Part shown: one piece after another, positions 3,446 through 62,007 of the stretch
Layout of the letters: each line of letters begins with the position of its first letter
How positions within the stretch are numbered: the first letter of the stretch is position 1
NCBI GenBank assembly: GCA_014236755.1
Contig: JACCKY010000034.1
Coordinates: forward strand, 1-62,007
DNA: 62,007 bases
Direction: 5' to 3'
Source: Candidatus Petromonas tenebris
Lineage (GTDB): Bacteria > Bacillota > Clostridia > Peptostreptococcales > Caminicellaceae
Notes under the pieces: model-generated
Databases searched by the model: none
Seen by the model: only the letters and a program-made list of their open reading frames with translations
Told to the model about the DNA's origin: nothing
Position numbers and translations under genes: made by a program

Positions 3446-3459
3446 GTCTATAATAACTT

Positions 3460-3530
3460 CACCCATAGTCAGGTAATTTACGGTCACCTGGTAGAGACAT
3501 CCAGACCTTATTACTGGATTTATATGAGTG
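3460..3530 (-). promoter_or_regulatory. Guanine (purine) riboswitch aptamer upstream of guaB
   Basis: The minus strand matches the purine aptamer closely. P1 is CACTCATATAA paired with TGGGTG. P2 is ATCCAG/CTGGAT. J2/3 is TCTCTACC. P3 is CAGGT paired with ACCTG around the loop CCGTAAAT, and the J3/1 core is GACTATGGG. The specificity base is C (GACTATG), which in this family means guanine rather than adenine. It should shut off guaB-guaA when guanine is plentiful. Confidence 0.93.
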
Positions 3531-3687
3531 CTTAAACTTTTTTTATTTTTATATAAACTATCAAATTTAAAGACTGTTGTCAATACAATTAATAAAAGTT
3601 AATATTTTCAAAAAATAAGATAGTCCTGTTGTAATTATATTATAAAACCAAAACAAGACTATCATCAGTTTAAAATCTTTCACTATT

Positions 3688-7808: not shown

Positions 7809-8737
7809 TATAAAACAGCACTCTCCTTCAATACGAGTTTTTTCTTATTAGCATCCATAAGAGCATTTACTCCCAGAGGCAATGTCATCATAGGACTGCA
7901 GTGGCCTGCCTTAACATTATAGATAGTAGGCTTTTTTAAGGGTAAAATTATATCTTTAAATACCTCCATTAACGTAAGGCTTCTTTCGGGTTTCTCAGGA
8001 GTGCAGTCATTCCAATCTCCTAGTATTATACCCTTTGCCTCTTGAAGCTTTCCCCCATGATAAAGCTGAGTAAGGAGTCTGTCTATCCTATATACCTCCT
8101 CCCCTATATCTTCTAGAAAAAGTAGTTTGCCCTTGGTATCTATTTCATAGGGAGTACCGAGACAGGAACATATCATTGCCAGATTGCCCCCCACTATCTG
8201 ACCCTCAGCCTTTCCTTCATAAAGACATTTTATTTCCTCATCCTTAGGATTATATACTTTAATTACTTCTTGCCCGGTAATTAAATTCATAAGAGATATT
8301 TCAGTGAAATCATCCATACCATCTGCTATCTCAGAGGTCACCATAGGGCCATGAAACGTCACCAGCTTGCAAATCTGATTGAAAACTACATGAGTAGTAG
8401 TTATATCACTATATCCTACGTAGACCTTTGGATTATTTTTTACAATATTGTAGTCAATTTTATCTAATATCCTGGGAGTTCCATATCCTCCCCTCAGACA
8501 AATGATGCCGTCTACTTCCTTGTCAGCAAACATGGCATTTATATCTCTTGCCCTGAGGTCATCTTCTCCAGCTAGATACCCATATCTTTTATAACAACTT
8601 TCTCCCATCTTTACCTTAAAACCCATCTCCTCCAGAACTTTTTTCCCCTTCTCTATCTTTTCTTCTTCGTAGGAGGGACTGGAAGGAGCTATAACTCCGA
8701 TAGTATCCCCACGCTTTAATCGTTTCGGCTTTATCAA
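7808..8737 (-). CDS. LD-carboxypeptidase (peptidase S66, LdcA/MccF-like)
   Basis: Removes the terminal D-Ala from murein tetrapeptides (L,D bond) during cell-wall recycling. The 309-residue form starts with the family motif KPKRLKRGDTIGVIAPSSP. The nucleophile Ser sits in the GYSDIT region after CLRGGYGTPRILD, and the Glu and His of the Ser-Glu-His triad lie in the C-terminal half (near KAGHCSPM). I chose the TTG at 8737 because GGGAGGGG precedes it by 5 nt; a GTG twelve codons upstream has no SD. First gene of the three-gene recycling run. Cytoplasmic, since no signal peptide is present. Confidence 0.88.
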   Translation of the reverse strand: MIKPKRLKRGDTIGVIAPSSPSYEEEKIEKGKKVLEEMGFKVKMGESCYKRYGYLAGEDDLRARDINAMFADKEVDGIICLRGGYGTPRILDKIDYNIVKNNPKVYVGYSDITTTHVVFNQICKLVTFHGPMVTSEIADGMDDFTEISLMNLITGQEVIKVYNPKDEEIKCLYEGKAEGQIVGGNLAMICSCLGTPYEIDTKGKLLFLEDIGEEVYRIDRLLTQLYHGGKLQEAKGIILGDWNDCTPEKPERSLTLMEVFKDIILPLKKPTIYNVKAGHCSPMMTLPLGVNALMDANKKKLVLKESAVL

Positions 8738-8805
8738 TCTAAACCCCTCCCAATATATGGAACTTATAGACACTAGCTTAACCCATAATATTCTAATAAA
8801 TGCAC

Positions 8806-8876
8806 AAAAGCGTCTTATGACGCTTTGTTAGTTCGTAGTTAGTAGTTGGTAGCTCTTAATTAGATCTTAGTAAATT
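8806..8876 (-). repeat. A element upstream of the LD-carboxypeptidase
   Basis: Hairpin AAAGCGTC-TTAT-GACGCTTT followed on the plus strand by heptamers GTTAGTT CGTAGTT AGTAGTT GGTAGCT. In the minus direction it lies downstream of lysA. Confidence 0.8.
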
Positions 8877-8894
8877 TAGGCATTTACTATTTAT

Positions 8895-9027
8895 CTAAGA
8901 TTCAATTTATATTAATTTAGGGATTTTGAAGCATTTGTTGCTACTTCTGTCTTCTTATTCATTATTTCTTTTATCCTATCTACTATTTCCTTTCTCTATA
9001 TCCCGTCACCTGTCACTTTTTACCCTT
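8895..9027 (-). repeat. Partial C element and heptamer tract after lysA
   Basis: 8895-8957 resembles the left arm of the C palindrome (AAGATTCAATTTATATTA, then GATTTTGAAGCATTTGTTGCT). Next to the lysA stop, the minus strand reads AGTGACAGGTGACGGG, the GGTGAC-type heptamer tract seen after many genes here. Confidence 0.7.
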
Positions 9028-23367: not shown

Positions 23368-23395
23368 TTACCTTCATTCATGATTATCTAAAAAC

Positions 23396-23590
23396 TTTAG
23401 GCAGGTCTCCTGGCTCAGGCTCACTGCCTTTAAACGCCTTCCCGATTCTAGTTATTAAGCAATATCAGTGGCATATGTTTAAAGGCTCACCTTTACAGTG
23501 GCGGGTCCGCTGAAGATTCTCACTTCATTCCCTATTCTCCCTAATTTTTGTACTATCCCAAATACATAAAATTAGGGCACCTAAAATTCA
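23396..23590 (-). promoter_or_regulatory. Cobalamin riboswitch upstream of cobT
   Basis: The minus strand has P1 (TTTTAG with CTAAAG), the GGTGCCC start, the core GCCACTGTAAAGGTGAGCC, a second GCCACTG, GGGAAGGCG, and the B12-box end GAGCCAGGAGACCTGCC. This is the adenosylcobalamin aptamer architecture. With the terminator that follows, it should stop transcription of cobT when cobalamin is present. Confidence 0.95.
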
Positions 23591-23712
23591 TAGACTATTT
23601 AATTTTTCTAAAAAACTCTATTCTACATAGATTTGAAAATTCCTGCTGAAAATTAATAAGTTTTAAATTATTTCCAGTCGAATATTGAATTTTAGCTTTT
23701 CGCCCTAAAAGA

Positions 23713-56693: not shown

Positions 56694-57185
56694 TTATTTT
56701 TTTTTATCAAAAAACATAGATTTTACTTGTTTTTTATAGGCACCGTAGGCACCCGTTACTTTTTTTCCTTGTCTTACGCCTTTAAGCCTTTGACCCAAAT
56801 CATTTTTATCCTTGCTTAGTTTACTTATATTTTGGTCATCTATTACCTTTATCTCTTTAGTCAGCTCCATAATTTCGCCAACAATTTTTTTAAGATTTTT
56901 TACTTGAGGATACATTTCTACATTTATTTTGTCGATAGAGTCTATTTTAAGATTCGACTTAAGTTTATCAAATTTAGCGTAAAAATTTAAATCAAGTTCG
57001 TCGATTTCTTTTATATAAGTATCCTTTAAATTAATTTGCTTTATTACAGTTTCTATTTTATTGAGCTCTATAAATTTTTGCTGCCTTTTTGTAATATCCA
57101 ATATATTCTTCATTAGTTCTTTCTTTTTTATACTTATCAAAATCAATTCTTGTATAAGTTTAACATTTTCCATAATATCATCCAT
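56694..57185 (-). CDS. FliT/FlgN-like flagellar export chaperone
   Basis: A 163-residue, Lys-rich, almost wholly helical protein in the position of fliT after fliS. The C-terminal GAYGAYKKQVKSMFFDKKK resembles the tail of FlgN-type chaperones, which hold hook-associated proteins before export. The central region (about 15-130) is predicted coiled coil. Its ATG overlaps the fliS stop region by 8 nt, so translation is coupled. FliT (FliD chaperone) and FlgN (FlgK/FlgL chaperone) cannot be told apart here. Confidence 0.72.
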   Translation of the reverse strand: MDDIMENVKLIQELILISIKKKELMKNILDITKRQQKFIELNKIETVIKQINLKDTYIKEIDELDLNFYAKFDKLKSNLKIDSIDKINVEMYPQVKNLKKIVGEIMELTKEIKVIDDQNISKLSKDKNDLGQRLKGVRQGKKVTGAYGAYKKQVKSMFFDKKK

Positions 57186-57696
57186 TCATACTATTTTCTT
57201 TTGTTGTTTCCTCTTGACTGGATACAACTAAACTTATCGCTTCTTTCCATGTATCTCTCATTTCTTCTGCCAATTCAATAACTTCATCTATAATAACTTT
57301 ATCCTTTTCAATATTTGCTTCCATAAGCCTTCTATTCATAAAATCATATAAACTTCTTAAACCTTTACTTATTTCATAATCCATATTTAAAGTTACGTTT
57401 AATTCTGTGATTATATCTTGTGCCTTTACTATAGCATTATGAGATTTTTCTATGTTTTTTTGATCTATAAATATTTTTGCTTGATTTAAAAACTTTATAA
57501 TGCCATTATAAAGCATCAAAGTAAGCTCCTCAGATCTAGCTGTTAAAATAGCCTGCTCTTTATAATGGTCAAATTTGTTTTTATTTGTCGAAGCTGTACT
57601 ACTATTAGTACTTATTGATGGTTTATTATTTAAACTTGTTCTAAATTTTAAAGCTGAATTTGGTATTGAATAGTTATATGGGTTTTTTATTGCCAT
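57178..57696 (-). CDS. fliS: Flagellin export chaperone FliS
   Basis: Binds the C-terminus of flagellin and keeps it unfolded until export. The core (about 40-160) has NKFDHYKEQAILTARSEELTLMLYNGIIKFL and NYEIS-type MDYEISKGLRSLYDFMNRRLMEANI. At 172 residues it is about 45 longer than usual, because of an N-terminal, Asn/Ser-rich extension before the YKEQAI motif. SD GGGAGTG. It sits between fliD and the FliT/FlgN-like gene. Confidence 0.93.
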   Translation of the reverse strand: MAIKNPYNYSIPNSALKFRTSLNNKPSISTNSSTASTNKNKFDHYKEQAILTARSEELTLMLYNGIIKFLNQAKIFIDQKNIEKSHNAIVKAQDIITELNVTLNMDYEISKGLRSLYDFMNRRLMEANIEKDKVIIDEVIELAEEMRDTWKEAISLVVSSQEETTKENSMNG

Positions 57697-57774
57697 TATA
57701 TTATCACTCCCACAATTACAAAAGTATTTTTTATTTCTTTTATTCTTTAATAACCCATTGTCAATTGTGCTTTA

Positions 57775-59493
57775 TTACATTCCTAATTGAGACATTAACC
57801 ATGACGACTGCTGGTTCATCTCATTTAATGCAGTTTCCATTGCAGAAAATTGACTATAGTATCTATCTTCTATTCTTGCTAACATATCTTCTTGCCTTTC
57901 TATTTGTTCTTCTAATTTAAGTAGTTCTTCCTCTATTATACTTATACTACCATTTTTAAGGTTTGTACCTGTTACAAAATCTGTTAAAATATTTGATCTA
58001 ACATCTCTAAGAAGTTCAGAATCATTGCCCGGACCGGCTTTGTCAATAACATCCTTCATGCCTTCTACCATCGTGTCAAACAACCTTATAACTAACCCAC
58101 TTTTATTATATTTATCTTCATCATCAGTATATTCAGTTGGTTCTTTAAATAACAGGTCTATTACACCACTAGCATTATTAATTATAGCTTCCTTTAGCTC
58201 AGTCTCATCGATAACAAGTTTACCCTTTTCTGAGTACTCACCGGTTTCTATACCTATCTCAGTTAATTGGTTCATTGTACTACTTAGTCCTGAAACAGTT
58301 TCATACATACCAAGTCTAATATTTGACATCATACTTGAAAGAATGCTGTCGTTTTTTAAAAGTCCGCTCTTAGCCATATTTTCCCATTTTTTTATTTGTT
58401 CTTCAGATAATGCTTCCTTTTCTTCATCAGTAAGGGGTTCATAATCTCTGTATACCTTTTCACTTAATTTTTCATTTATTTTACCAATAACTTCATTATA
58501 TTTTTCAACAAAGTTACTTATTTTTTCATATATTGCATCCACATCGGTTTCCACTGCAATATTAGTGGTTCCTGTACTCTTAGCAGTAATATTTATACCA
58601 TTTATGCTAAAAGTATTAGATGATTTAGTAAGTCCTGTTGCATCTCCAAAATCAAATTGTAAGTCTTTCCCAGAATATTTATAGGTATCAGTATCAGGTA
58701 ACTGACTTCCTCCTTTATCGTTTGCAATTTTTAATTTTAGAATATTATTTCCCGTTTCACTACCTATTGCTACATCTTCGTCTGTTGAAAGAAAACCATG
58801 AGAATCATCAATGACCTGAAAATAACTACTCGATCCTGTAGAAGTAGTATTTAAAAAGAATCTATCTAAATCACTATCATATGCAGCTTGTATTCCAATA
58901 TTTGCATTATTTATTTCAGCAATCACATCATCTAGTGTATCTACAGATGTATCAAAGGAAAAAATAGCATATCCATCAGGATAATTTGTACTATCACTTT
59001 CTGTTACATGAGTTTTAATTTTAAAGGTTATTGTTTCTCCAGATGATAAACTAGCAAATTGTTCATAAAGTTTATCGGTACTAGTTTTTCCAGCAACAGA
59101 TATACTTCCTGTACTCGTTTTTGAAACACCTTCTGCAAGCTGAGTTATATTTAAGCTATAAGTTCCATTTAAAGCATTAGCTGTTGCCCTAGCAGTTGCC
59201 TTTGTTTCATCAGAGCTTGATGCAGATTTTACCCATGTAAAACTATCGGAAGATTTATTGTATAATGTTCCATAGGCTGTAGAACCACTTAACCCTAAAT
59301 CTTCTTTAACATCTAATATAAAATTGGCCATTTCCTTATTTATTTCTTGATAGGCCTCTTGCTTCCATAGATTTATTTGTTTATCTTTTTCAAGATTAGT
59401 TACTCTTCTATCCCTTTCTACCTTCATCATATCTGCTACCATTTGATCTATGTCTATACCCGAGCCAAGTCCAAACACACGCATACCTGCCAT
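57775..59493 (-). CDS. fliD: Flagellar hook-associated protein 2 (filament cap)
   Basis: Caps the filament and guides flagellin assembly. 572 residues. The N-terminal domain has VFGLGSGIDIDQMVADMMKVERDRR and LEKDKQINLWKQEAYQEIN. The variable middle is Ser/Thr/Asp-rich. The C-terminal domain has the FVEKYNEVIGKINEKLSEK region and the coiled coil ending IEDRYYSQFSAMETALNEMN. Start after a weak GGGG-type SD. It is the second gene of the flaG operon. Confidence 0.95.
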   Translation of the reverse strand: MAGMRVFGLGSGIDIDQMVADMMKVERDRRVTNLEKDKQINLWKQEAYQEINKEMANFILDVKEDLGLSGSTAYGTLYNKSSDSFTWVKSASSSDETKATARATANALNGTYSLNITQLAEGVSKTSTGSISVAGKTSTDKLYEQFASLSSGETITFKIKTHVTESDSTNYPDGYAIFSFDTSVDTLDDVIAEINNANIGIQAAYDSDLDRFFLNTTSTGSSSYFQVIDDSHGFLSTDEDVAIGSETGNNILKLKIANDKGGSQLPDTDTYKYSGKDLQFDFGDATGLTKSSNTFSINGINITAKSTGTTNIAVETDVDAIYEKISNFVEKYNEVIGKINEKLSEKVYRDYEPLTDEEKEALSEEQIKKWENMAKSGLLKNDSILSSMMSNIRLGMYETVSGLSSTMNQLTEIGIETGEYSEKGKLVIDETELKEAIINNASGVIDLLFKEPTEYTDDEDKYNKSGLVIRLFDTMVEGMKDVIDKAGPGNDSELLRDVRSNILTDFVTGTNLKNGSISIIEEELLKLEEQIERQEDMLARIEDRYYSQFSAMETALNEMNQQSSWLMSQLGM

Positions 59494-59515
59494 AAAAACA
59501 CCCCATTTCCTTTAT

Positions 59516-59878
59516 CTACGCTCTTTCATCCACAAAAAGTCCCGCAAGCTCCCACATCTTGGCTATCATATCCTGAATTTTTTCTGGTGGAAATTCCTTT
59601 ATAACTTTATTTGTCTCAGTATCCATTATTCTAAAAATAATAGCCTTTGTTTTTTCATGAACATGTCTTTCTATTTTTCTATTTACTTTTTCTAATACTT
59701 TGTTAGCTTGCTCAATTGATTTATCAATTAATCCCTCACTAAATCCATTTTCATTCTTAACATCTCGATTAGATATTTCCTTACTGAGTTCCTTTGATAT
59801 TTCTATTGCCTTACTTTCTACATTACCCGTACTGCTCATTGTAGTATTACTTATATTAATAGAAGTATCAATTTTCAT
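59516..59878 (-). CDS. flaG: FlaG family protein
   Basis: A 120-residue protein of the FlaG/YvyC family, which affects filament length. A variable N-terminus is followed by LEKVNRKIERHVHEKTKAI and the conserved end FRIMDTETNKVIKEFPPEKIQDMIAKMWELAGLFVDERA. SD TTGGAGG. First gene of flaG-fliD-fliS-flgN, with a probable sigma-D promoter, divergent from flagellin. Confidence 0.93.
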   Translation of the reverse strand: MKIDTSINISNTTMSSTGNVESKAIEISKELSKEISNRDVKNENGFSEGLIDKSIEQANKVLEKVNRKIERHVHEKTKAIIFRIMDTETNKVIKEFPPEKIQDMIAKMWELAGLFVDERA

Positions 59879-59913
59879 TCTAAATCCTCCAATCGTAAAT
59901 TATTCTATTTATT

Positions 59914-59941
59914 ATTTCGGTAATTTATAGTTAAAAGTTTA
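59914..59941 (-). promoter_or_regulatory. Probable sigma-D promoter for flaG-fliD-fliS
   Basis: Minus TAAA, 16-nt spacer, ACCGAAAT. It has the same spacing as the flagellin promoter but a weaker -10 (5 of 8 match to GCCGATAA). Confidence 0.55.
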
Positions 59942-59991
59942 AGATTTAATAAATTTTTCACTACTTTTTTAATTTTTTTTGCAAATTTTAT

Positions 59992-60019
59992 TAAAGTCTA
60001 TAAACATCACCTCCGATAA
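59992..60019 (+). promoter_or_regulatory. Sigma-D (sigma-28) promoter for flagellin
   Basis: TAAAGTCT, then N12, then TCCGATAA, a close match to the flagellar sigma consensus. It gives a leader of about 145 nt. Confidence 0.75.
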
Positions 60020-60124
60020 TAATAATGAAAAGAAAATCATCAGTAATTCTTTGGCGGCCGACGAAGAGACTTGGTGATTTAAGTTATTTAGGTTGAATGG
60101 TTAACCTACAACCTAAAACTTTTT

Positions 60125-60171
60125 TATGGCAAGGATGCCAAAAACAAATCGTTTCAAGGAGGATGATTTCA
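60125..60171 (+). promoter_or_regulatory. Probable CsrA-binding leader of flagellin
   Basis: A hairpin TGGCA-AGGA-TGCCA (60127-60140) places AGGA in the loop. A second GGA lies in the SD (TCAAGGAGGATG), about 15 nt later. In Bacillus hag, CsrA binds one such hairpin and the SD to block translation until FliW relieves it. The arrangement here is the same. Confidence 0.65.
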
Positions 60172-61682
60172 TGAGAATCAATCACAACTTAATGGCACTG
60201 AACACCCATCGTCAATTGGGAATTGGTAACGCAATGGCATCAAAATCTATGGAAAAATTATCATCAGGCTTAAGAATCAACAGAGCTGGAGACGATGCTG
60301 CTGGTCTAGCAATCTCTGAAAAAATGAGAGCACAGATTAGAGGTCTTAACCAAGCTTCTAGAAACGCTCAAGATGGTATTTCTATGGTTCAAACTGCTGA
60401 AGGTGCACTTCAAGAAACTCAAGCTATACTTCAAAGAATGAGAGAGCTTGCCGTTCAATCTTCAAATGACACTAATGTCAATATTGACCGCCAATCTATT
60501 CAAAACGAAGTTGACCAATTAGCTCAAGAAATAACTAGAATAGCTAATAATACTGAATTTAATAATCAGAAGCTTTTAAATGGAGGTATAAATTCAAATA
60601 ATATAGGTGAAGTTTCTTTCCATATAGGAGCAAACTCAGATCAAAGCTTAAATCTTTCAATTTCTGCTATGGATGCTCAATCACTTGGTGTAGCTAGAGA
60701 TAAGACAACTGCCACTTTAAGTGGTAATACAGATGTTACGGCAGTAGATTTAGATGCTACTCTTGGCTCTGCTATAACTAACGGAACCACGATTACGTTA
60801 AGCGCAAATGCTACTGCGGCAACAGCAACTACAGGTGCTGTTGGCGGTATCACTCTAACTACAACAGGAAATACGTCAGAACTTAACGGATATACTATCA
60901 CTTATGCCGATGGAGGAGACGGTGCGGCTGCTTCAGTAGCTTTTGACGCAGCAAATAAGACATTTACTATCACAGGTGACTTTAACAACACAGATACTAC
61001 TGGTAGTTTTACATCTGGTACTGATGTTGCTACAGCATTGAATGCTGTTTTAACCGCTAATGGATTTACAGCTCAAGTATCTGGAGCAGGTACAGGTAGC
61101 GCAGCTACTGGTGGAACCTCAGGTACTTTTACAGGTGGTATAGGTAGTGGAGAGGTAGAATTGACATTAACGGCTGGAGCAACTACAGAGACTATCGTTG
61201 TTGATAATACAGCTACAAGTGTGAGTTTTAAAGATGCTGCAAAATTTAAAGGCATAAATTTAACACTAGATGGATCTTTAAGTGCATCTACAGCTGCAAC
61301 AATTACAATAGGAACAACTACAGCTAGAAGTGCTTCATTCTCAAACAATGAGAAAGTGGCAGATGCAGTAGCTGCAGCTGGAATAGATGTATCTACTTCT
61401 ACATCAGCTAATTCAGCTATTACAACGATTGATAAAGCATTAGAAAAAGTTTCTTCTGAGAGAAGTAAACTAGGTGCTGTTCAAAACAGATTAGAACACT
61501 CAATTAGAAACTTAGATACTTCAGCTGAAAACTTACAAGCTGCTGAATCTAGAATCAGAGACGTAGACATGGCTAAGGAAATGATGGAATTCACTAAGAA
61601 TAACATCTTACAACAAGCAGCACAAGCTATGTTGGCTCAAGCACAGCAACAACCTAGTGGAGTATTACAACTTCTTAGGTAA
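60171..61682 (+). CDS. hag: Flagellin
   Basis: The filament subunit, exported through the flagellar channel. 503 residues. The conserved N-terminal D0/D1 starts MRINHNLMALNTHRQLGIGN, with SSGLRINRAGDDAAGLAISE. The C-terminal D1/D0 has LGAVQNRLEHSIRNLDTSAENLQAAESRI and ends AMLAQAQQQPSGVLQLLR. The middle (about 175-420) is Ala/Thr/Gly-rich and variable, the surface-exposed part. The start is the ATG after AAGGAGG; an ATG 15 codons earlier spans the CsrA hairpin. The stop codon TAA lies at or next to the 5' splice site of a group I intron. Confidence 0.97.
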   Translation: MRINHNLMALNTHRQLGIGNAMASKSMEKLSSGLRINRAGDDAAGLAISEKMRAQIRGLNQASRNAQDGISMVQTAEGALQETQAILQRMRELAVQSSNDTNVNIDRQSIQNEVDQLAQEITRIANNTEFNNQKLLNGGINSNNIGEVSFHIGANSDQSLNLSISAMDAQSLGVARDKTTATLSGNTDVTAVDLDATLGSAITNGTTITLSANATAATATTGAVGGITLTTTGNTSELNGYTITYADGGDGAAASVAFDAANKTFTITGDFNNTDTTGSFTSGTDVATALNAVLTANGFTAQVSGAGTGSAATGGTSGTFTGGIGSGEVELTLTAGATTETIVVDNTATSVSFKDAAKFKGINLTLDGSLSASTAATITIGTTTARSASFSNNEKVADAVAAAGIDVSTSTSANSAITTIDKALEKVSSERSKLGAVQNRLEHSIRNLDTSAENLQAAESRIRDVDMAKEMMEFTKNNILQQAAQAMLAQAQQQPSGVLQLLR

Positions 61683-62007
61683 TGCTATAAGGGTCCCTTA
61701 AAGGGTAACCTTTAAGTGCAAATCGGGTGAATTGCTGGAACTTCCTAAAGCTCTGCTCCCTACAACGTAATCCGAAAGGATAGGCGTGACAGGTTAAAAA
61801 GCAGTAGAGATGTTACAATGGATAATCAGCAGCCAAGCTCCTGTACCGAAAGGTTGGAGAAGGTTCAACGACTAAGACGAACGTACTACGTAATGAATAA
61901 TGAAAAATGAATAGTGAATAGGTAAAAAATAAAAATCTAAATACTTATTCATTATATGTATATGAGGTCTGTAGGGATTTGAGATGTCCCGAAGTGCCCG
62001 ACAACCT
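61683..62007 (+). ncRNA. Group I intron, 5' part (possibly an IStron), cut by the window end
   Basis: Core elements appear in the right order. A perfect hairpin CTTAAAGG-GTAA-CCTTTAAG comes early. The P element follows (GGTGAATTGCTGGAAC), then Q (AATCAGCAGCC), a hairpin GTACCGAAAGGT, and R (GGTTCAACGACTAAGAC). P4 forms between GCTG and CAGC. The S element, which should pair with R (TAGTC type), is not seen before the window ends, so the 3' half lies outside. After R a heptamer-like stretch (TGAATAATGAAAAATGAA) occurs in what should be a peripheral loop. The core resembles CdISt1-like intron/IS chimeras; a transposase beyond the edge would confirm that. Confidence 0.85.

Follow-up and report, generated by a model that had tools for sequence, protein, structure and literature searches.

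Directly behind the stop codon of a flagellin gene of Candidatus Petromonas tenebris lies a group I intron core with its P, Q and R elements, and the question raised by this locus is where the intron begins and what becomes of the flagellin C-terminus before and after splicing. The window analysed here is an entire contig (C13, 1-62007; 62,007 nucleotides) of a genome in 120 contigs, and it ends inside the intron. We put a probability of roughly three in four on the reading that a group I intron is inserted in the last flagellin codons, after the GCT of MLA^QANQQPQGVLQLLR, and carries its own substitute C-terminus; splicing, the two products, their competition and homing are what we infer from it.

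The intron core, the contig end and the relatives

The preliminary description had reported a P, Q and R core adjoining the flagellin TAA (61680-61682, + strand), and this was borne out. The group I model search that it proposed, run through Rfam on the window, matched RF00028 at 61671-62007 (+) with 58.6 bits against a gathering score of 50 (E 2.6e-12), in an alignment cut at its 3' end by the contig end. The core motifs are genuine, far outside what chance would give, and homologues likewise identify the element as a group I intron. The features, all on the + strand, are as follows.

60171..61682, +: flagellin gene in its unspliced reading, 503 aa, ending in MLAQAQQQPSGVLQLLR and stop (Pfam Flagellin_N E 1.7e-48, Flagellin_C E 2.1e-30)
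60171..61637, +: predicted 5' exon, ending ATG TTG GCT^ (junction predicted from 40 complete homologues; U.G and three more guide pairs)
61638..61682, +: copy 1, flagellin C-terminus QAQQQPSGVLQLLR and TAA (pN/pS 0.228, 35 distinct sequences of 41; swap test)
61638..62007, +: group I intron, 5' part, continuing beyond the contig end (RF00028, 58.6 bits; alignment with 20 complete homologues)
61691..61696, +: internal guide sequence GGGTCC (GGG invariant in 21 rows; 4-bp pairing)
61698..61715, +: P2 hairpin (RNAalifold, all 7 pairs changed on both sides)
61723..61729, +: P3 5' strand (Rfam alignment, RNAalifold)
61730..61740, +: P element, P4 5' strand region (Rfam alignment, RNAalifold)
61824..61837, +: Q element, P4 3' strand and on (Rfam alignment, RNAalifold)
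61863..61879, +: R element, P7 5' strand region (Rfam alignment)
61891..61950, +: AT-rich expansion, peripheral hairpin region between P7 and the P3 3' strand (DNA search, alignment)
61995..62001, +: P3 3' strand, 6 nt before the contig end (Rfam alignment, RNAalifold)

Several related genomes have short matches to parts of the AT-rich expansion, the pattern expected of a dispersed repeat. RNAalifold on 21 introns drew 65 pairs, 40 of them with changes on both sides; P2 onward is supported and P1 was not drawn. Extra hairpins between P7 and P3 characterize subgroup IA2, a putative assignment here; in the stretch from R to the 3' strand of P3, RNAalifold draws hairpin pairs. On the minus strand of the window, Rfam also finds a cobalamin riboswitch (23383-23599) and a purine riboswitch (3446-3547).

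The window holds P, Q and R and is cut before S, and because the intron runs off the contig, the S element, 3' splice site and 3' exon lie outside the sequence. The look for a 3' exon that had been proposed thus found none in the window, and Rfam and DNA searches of the contigs returned neither the missing 3' half nor a second full match to the intron DNA in the genome, where the 503-aa flagellin is likewise the sole full-length match to itself. A degenerate intron, of which copy 1 alone is used, would also leave its 3' half on no contig, and genome G083 does contain a remnant (loci L112 and L134): an intron 3' half alone with a decayed second C-terminus. The window's guide and its paired regions through the P3 3' strand, on the other hand, are intact and fit the family, and a contig ending inside the intron, together with an endonuclease gene cut by the end of another contig, fits an assembly gap over a deletion. 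We consider such decay unlikely, and the unseen 3' half probably resembles that of the relatives. Full-length RF00028 matches were obtained in five of the six related loci searched (L127, L129, L130, L014 and L173, the last with two), and none at gathering score in the type B locus L176.

A DNA search with the intron in 198 genomes gave any match at E 0.001 in 29, with strong core matches in the genome itself and in seven others (G009, G078, G160, G125, G154, G126 and G084), all seven at flagellin ends. Among flagellin loci chosen by protein similarity (the best 80 of 544 relatives), a core profile placed an intron directly 3' of flagellin in 15, two of them the G078 and G084 loci. A phylum sample gave matches in 16 of 398 genomes, the window's own included, and 35 of the 41 genomes in the family of Geobacillus jurassicus match the intron of locus L014, part of these matches lying in other genes. 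Phage (76) and plasmid (2) records matching the query never covered 80% of it, and reached at most 45% among the matches listed.

Once duplicate loci and rows with an identical 200-nt core had been removed, a script classified 76 flagellin introns as 41 of type A, which share the window's flagellin site and include the window, 9 of type B (ATGCT^) and 26 of type C (DVD^). Outside these classes stand L192 (type A, with a 3' exon that did not fit the pattern), a second, type A intron in L207 (truncated where its contig ends), the 3' remnant of L112, and the introns of L204, L104, L116, L108 and L110, which are not in flagellin. The 40 complete type A introns come from Clostridia and Bacilli, class labels that in part we take as given, and measure 343-449 nt. 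This length bears on the proposal that the element is an IStron, a group I intron joined to an IS605-type transposable element. IStrons are known in Clostridioides, but introns of 343-449 nt have no space for a tnpB-like transposase gene, and the associated gene is a separate LAGLIDADG_2 gene. On these two grounds, taken from relatives since the window gives the 5' part, we reject the proposal as the least credible of those considered.

On the core tree the window falls in an all-type-A set of eight rows (SH-aLRT 96), in which its long branch leaves its placement in this quick tree unsure. The types are strongly clustered (none of 200 shuffles as low), with 7 changes against a possible minimum of 2, which suggests that sites or cores were probably swapped more than once. 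Type C and type A introns occur one after the other, about 430-440 nt apart from start to start, within one flagellin gene in G604 locus L173 and in L188-L191, L194, L196-L199, L201 and L203.

Two C-termini and the 5' splice site

Type A introns follow the order copy 1 and stop, short spacer, guide GGG(U/C), P2, core, S (AAGATATAGTC and variants), a G^CAAGC junction, and copy 2 and stop. In complete examples the 5' exon ends ATG.T.GCT and the intron opens with CAA or CAG; copy 1 consists of 14 codons that repeat the flagellin C-terminus, then a stop. A hairpin and a T run stand behind copy 2 in several loci, as judged by eye.

When GCT is joined to CAAGC, MLA runs in frame into QAN(Q/M)(A/Q)PQ.VLQLL in 40 of 40 complete type A introns, a result that holds partly by construction because the script accepted only introns with a 3'-terminal G and a spliced end resembling flagellin. 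The script considered only the first codons of copy 1 and left the -1 base free, though this base is T in 41 of 41. With a G of the guide it forms a U.G pair at the predicted 5' splice site; the terminal 3' G of the homologues, required by the pattern, falls beyond the window's end. The 5' splice site of the window is most likely 61637^61638, after GCT and inside MLA^QA, 42 nt before the stop, so that TAA and the 14 codons before it would belong to the intron. The homologues therefore agree with the earlier suggestions that the site precedes the TAA and that splicing would rebuild the flagellin C-terminus, and they move the intron, which had been placed exactly at the stop codon, back into the coding sequence.

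Guide positions 61692-61695 pair with GGCU^ at 61634-61637 (4 bp). Beside U.G, this exonic P1 has three pairs in the window, as in most introns from the Clostridia side, and two (3 bp in all) in L130, L132 and the Bacilli. In Bacilli the guide finds a better partner 4 nt upstream (5-6 bp, with AUGUU^ or similar); we rejected that site, which in the cases examined would yield MLKQ or MLWQ and not the native MLAQ, and this better pairing remains a weakness of the assignment. In many Bacilli, sites inside copy 1 also score higher than the preferred one, and the window has at least three further U positions that tie with it at 4 bp.

One of these ties, at +36 (61673), lies near the stop, and the Rfam alignment, which starts at 61671, also lays P1 over the stop codon; both are what one would see if the 5' splice site were at the stop and filament assembly depended on splicing. 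Several pairs of that P1 are non-standard, however, and the best near-stop sites among those listed are present in some sequences only. A joint there would repeat the C-terminus rather than rebuild it, and the unspliced frame already holds a complete one. Homologue junctions and P1 pairing led us to reject a site at the stop codon, which we regard as highly improbable, and the earlier proposal that filament production depends on splicing meets the same difficulty, as the unspliced frame already encodes a complete C-terminus of the selected type.

With the preferred site, the first 22 intron nt pair with the 24 nt preceding the guide, the first part of copy 1 forming the 5' strand of this P1 extension. 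In a swap test on 35 distinct pairs, native strands gave a mean of -13.67 kcal/mol and swapped strands -8.16 kcal/mol (sd 0.53), with none of 5000 swaps as low. These energies indicate that the strands of the P1 extension covary and that copy 1 is one of them.

Copy 1 also behaves as a coding sequence. Its stop stands at codon 15 in all 41 sequences (35 distinct), and its entropy is 9.3, 4.05 and 19.17 bits at codon positions 1, 2 and 3. In frame, pN/pS is 0.228, compared with 0.782 and 3.026 in the two other frames and a mean of 0.96 (lowest 0.51) in 200 column shuffles of 20 sampled rows each. The ratio is 0.139 for codons 8-14, outside most of the P1 extension, 0.367 for codons 1-7, and 0.11 for copy 1 of the QS lineage alone; leucine and arginine codons swap between synonymous families. 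The in-frame ratio and the synonymous variation suggest that selection has acted on the protein that unspliced RNA would encode.

When a group I intron sits in a bacterial protein gene, ribosomes enter it before it has folded. At this locus, the first 45 intron nt (61638-61682) would serve both as an alternative C-terminus with its stop and as one strand of the P1 extension ahead of the guide. On unspliced RNA the ribosome would translate copy 1 and stop ahead of the ribozyme core; in spliced RNA copy 1 would be removed and the native copy 2, beyond the contig end, joined. Full-length flagellin would then come from spliced and unspliced RNA alike. A ribosome terminating there would cover P1 and the guide, and translation and splicing therefore probably compete on each transcript.

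The proteins of copy 1 and copy 2 differ in each complete pair listed (for example QSNQMPQ versus QANQQPQ in Bacilli), as they would if splicing were controlled, for instance by temperature, and switched between C-termini or 3' ends that differ in function, chaperone binding, export or mRNA stability being examples, instead of providing a fail-safe. The available part of PMC4853749 describes the splicing of flagellin introns from thermophiles as temperature-dependent and possibly regulatory. The two C-termini are nearly identical, however, copy 1 varies among lineages, and an Rfam search of 61500-62007 at E up to 1 returned the intron alone, with no known sensor domain and no riboswitch. A regulated switch of isoforms is in our judgement possible but improbable, and the substitute C-terminus remains the preferred reading.

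In the Geobacillus family, intronless flagellins are nearer copy 2 for all 18 genomes compared (156 of 162 comparisons, 4 ties); they are also nearer copy 2 in 12 of 12 on the Clostridia side and in 7 of 7 among other Bacilli, the latter two against 62 intronless C-termini (3 of 65 intronless loci gave none). These direction tests left out L171, L172, L173 and the cut type A locus L207; the margin is small in the L127-L129 group, where copy 1 is slightly nearer at protein level (0.87 versus 0.85). Copy 1 thus seems to have arrived with the intron or diverged inside it, and faster divergence of copy 1 could explain the preference instead of arrival. In L066 and L019, 45 nt of copy 2 DNA exactly match the C-terminus of an intronless flagellin at another locus, which suggests recent exchange.

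What had been noticed at the window's end is thus real but to be re-read: its intron would be one of a family that is spread over Clostridia and Bacilli and carries a substitute flagellin end.

Sister introns and a free-standing endonuclease

At the other two flagellin sites (type B, 9 rows with 8 distinct tails; type C, 26 rows with 17), reading without splicing would cut flagellin short and add tails such as LEGIAA, LEVLAA, YALAA and YAEAA; the loci are L173, L174-L186 and the Geobacillus-family loci among L188-L216. All 9 type B tails and 24 of the 26 type C tails end in Ala-Ala, the remaining two ending Val-Ala, so that 33 of 35 have AA before the stop. Host tmRNA tags, decoded in 13 of 15 loci, end AA in every case (GKQNYALAA and GKENYALAA for G202 and G636, both from the Geobacillus family, and ADNNYALAA for the genome of the window), and a tail of YALAA and stop equals the end of the tmRNA tag of Geobacillus and its kin. 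The Ala codons of the tails vary synonymously; the tails lie in what looks like a P1 hairpin, and structure may therefore contribute to their sequence. No AA ending was seen in related introns of other genes, taken to the nearest in-frame stop with provisional 5' splice sites, among the rows that were read as genes, which were all but a few.

Our working hypothesis is that the type B and C tails are an intron-encoded degradation tag on unspliced flagellin. A literature search for intron-encoded degrons gave no relevant match among the matches listed. We hold the balance to be even on the combined proposal that the type A intron supplies a working C-terminus while the introns at the other two sites supply a tmRNA-tag mimic (YALAA and stop, or another ending in AA and stop) that marks truncated flagellin. 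The working C-terminus would make translation before splicing harmless at the type A site, and the tagged, truncated flagellin would go to ClpXP-type proteases before it poisons export.

Another contig of the genome, C58, ends within a LAGLIDADG_2 gene (PF03161, E 8.4e-26) that is preceded there by ORFs read as flgL, fliW and csrA. Judged from this gene order only, C58 probably adjoins C13; between the ends of the two contigs, only short chance-level matches and no overlap were found. If the contigs do adjoin, the block of flagellin, intron and endonuclease, spread over window 57000-62007 and C58, is inverted relative to the relatives, and a search for inverted repeats at the presumed inversion ends gave no clear ones, only short chance-level matches. 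In L170, the C58 locus (8496-9005), a 169-aa protein of repeated DGMDKRL units lies between a csrA-like ORF and the endonuclease gene.

The endonuclease query found the gene in 10 of 21 intron-bearing genomes. An endonuclease ORF is nearby in 17 of 37 intron-bearing loci and in 0 of 65 intronless loci (Fisher 1.7e-9), in a count that takes in the genome's own C58 gene and loci with flanks of unequal length. By type, the ORF accompanies 10 of 24 type A loci (own genome counted), leaving 14 of 24 without one nearby, and 7 of 13 type B/C loci. It lies antisense and downstream of flagellin in the relatives, antisense in 16 of 17; the ORF at L179, on the same strand as flagellin, may be unrelated. 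This association suggests that a free-standing LAGLIDADG endonuclease probably spreads, or spread, the intron by homing. The part of PMC5109656 available to us places a Geobacillus LAGLIDADG gene in the flagellin-flaG interval, and the word intron is absent from that part.

Relation to known systems

Hayakawa and Ishizuka reportedly described, in 2009 and 2012, group I introns in flagellin genes of thermophilic Bacillus/Geobacillus. Those introns and the window's are in the same gene; within the Geobacillus family we find introns in flagellin both where the window has its own and at a second position, in a comparison made outside the published sequences. The thermophilic Bacillaceae introns to which the preliminary description had pointed thus hold as relatives, with a related core in the same gene and, in the Geobacillus family, at the same site. 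Group I introns in flagellin genes are already known from the accessible parts of PMC3984707 and PMC4853749, and the latter assigns the thermophilic Bacillus/Geobacillus intron to IA2. In the parts of the literature searched, a scope to which Hayakawa and Ishizuka 2009 and 2012 do not belong, the two-copy plan has no earlier description.

If this plan holds, the 5' end of the intron doubles as host coding sequence and P1, and the host is unharmed by failed splicing. The locus would then offer a natural test of the competition between translation and splicing, and of how a mobile intron is tolerated in one of the most highly expressed genes; together with the sister introns, it would test whether introns encode protein-quality signals. 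Selection on the read-through peptide, if true, would be a general route for intron life under coupled transcription and translation.

In Clostridioides difficile, a group I ribozyme controlled by c-di-GMP has two RNA outcomes with differing translation results. Two RNA outcomes are predicted here as well, but we found no riboswitch, and both would encode the full protein. In the collaborative homing of phage introns, an ORF-less intron stands beside a free-standing endonuclease gene; the gene here is a LAGLIDADG_2 gene, antisense and downstream of flagellin, and homing is putative.

The closing comparison is with mobile-ORF hybrids of fungal mitochondria (Allomyces atp6; Glomus atp6, atp9, cox2 and nad3), in which an element with an endonuclease gene likewise brings a host C-terminus, with the native one downstream. 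The available parts of PMC3630166 and PMC4019555 report that the inserted C-terminus replaces the native one, which is unexpressed in atp6 and cox2. The present locus, too, has an inserted C-terminus in phase and, in its relatives, the native one downstream, a likeness in working that implies no common descent. Unlike in the fungal hybrids, the ribozyme here could bring back the native end by excising the inserted copy, which is itself part of P1.
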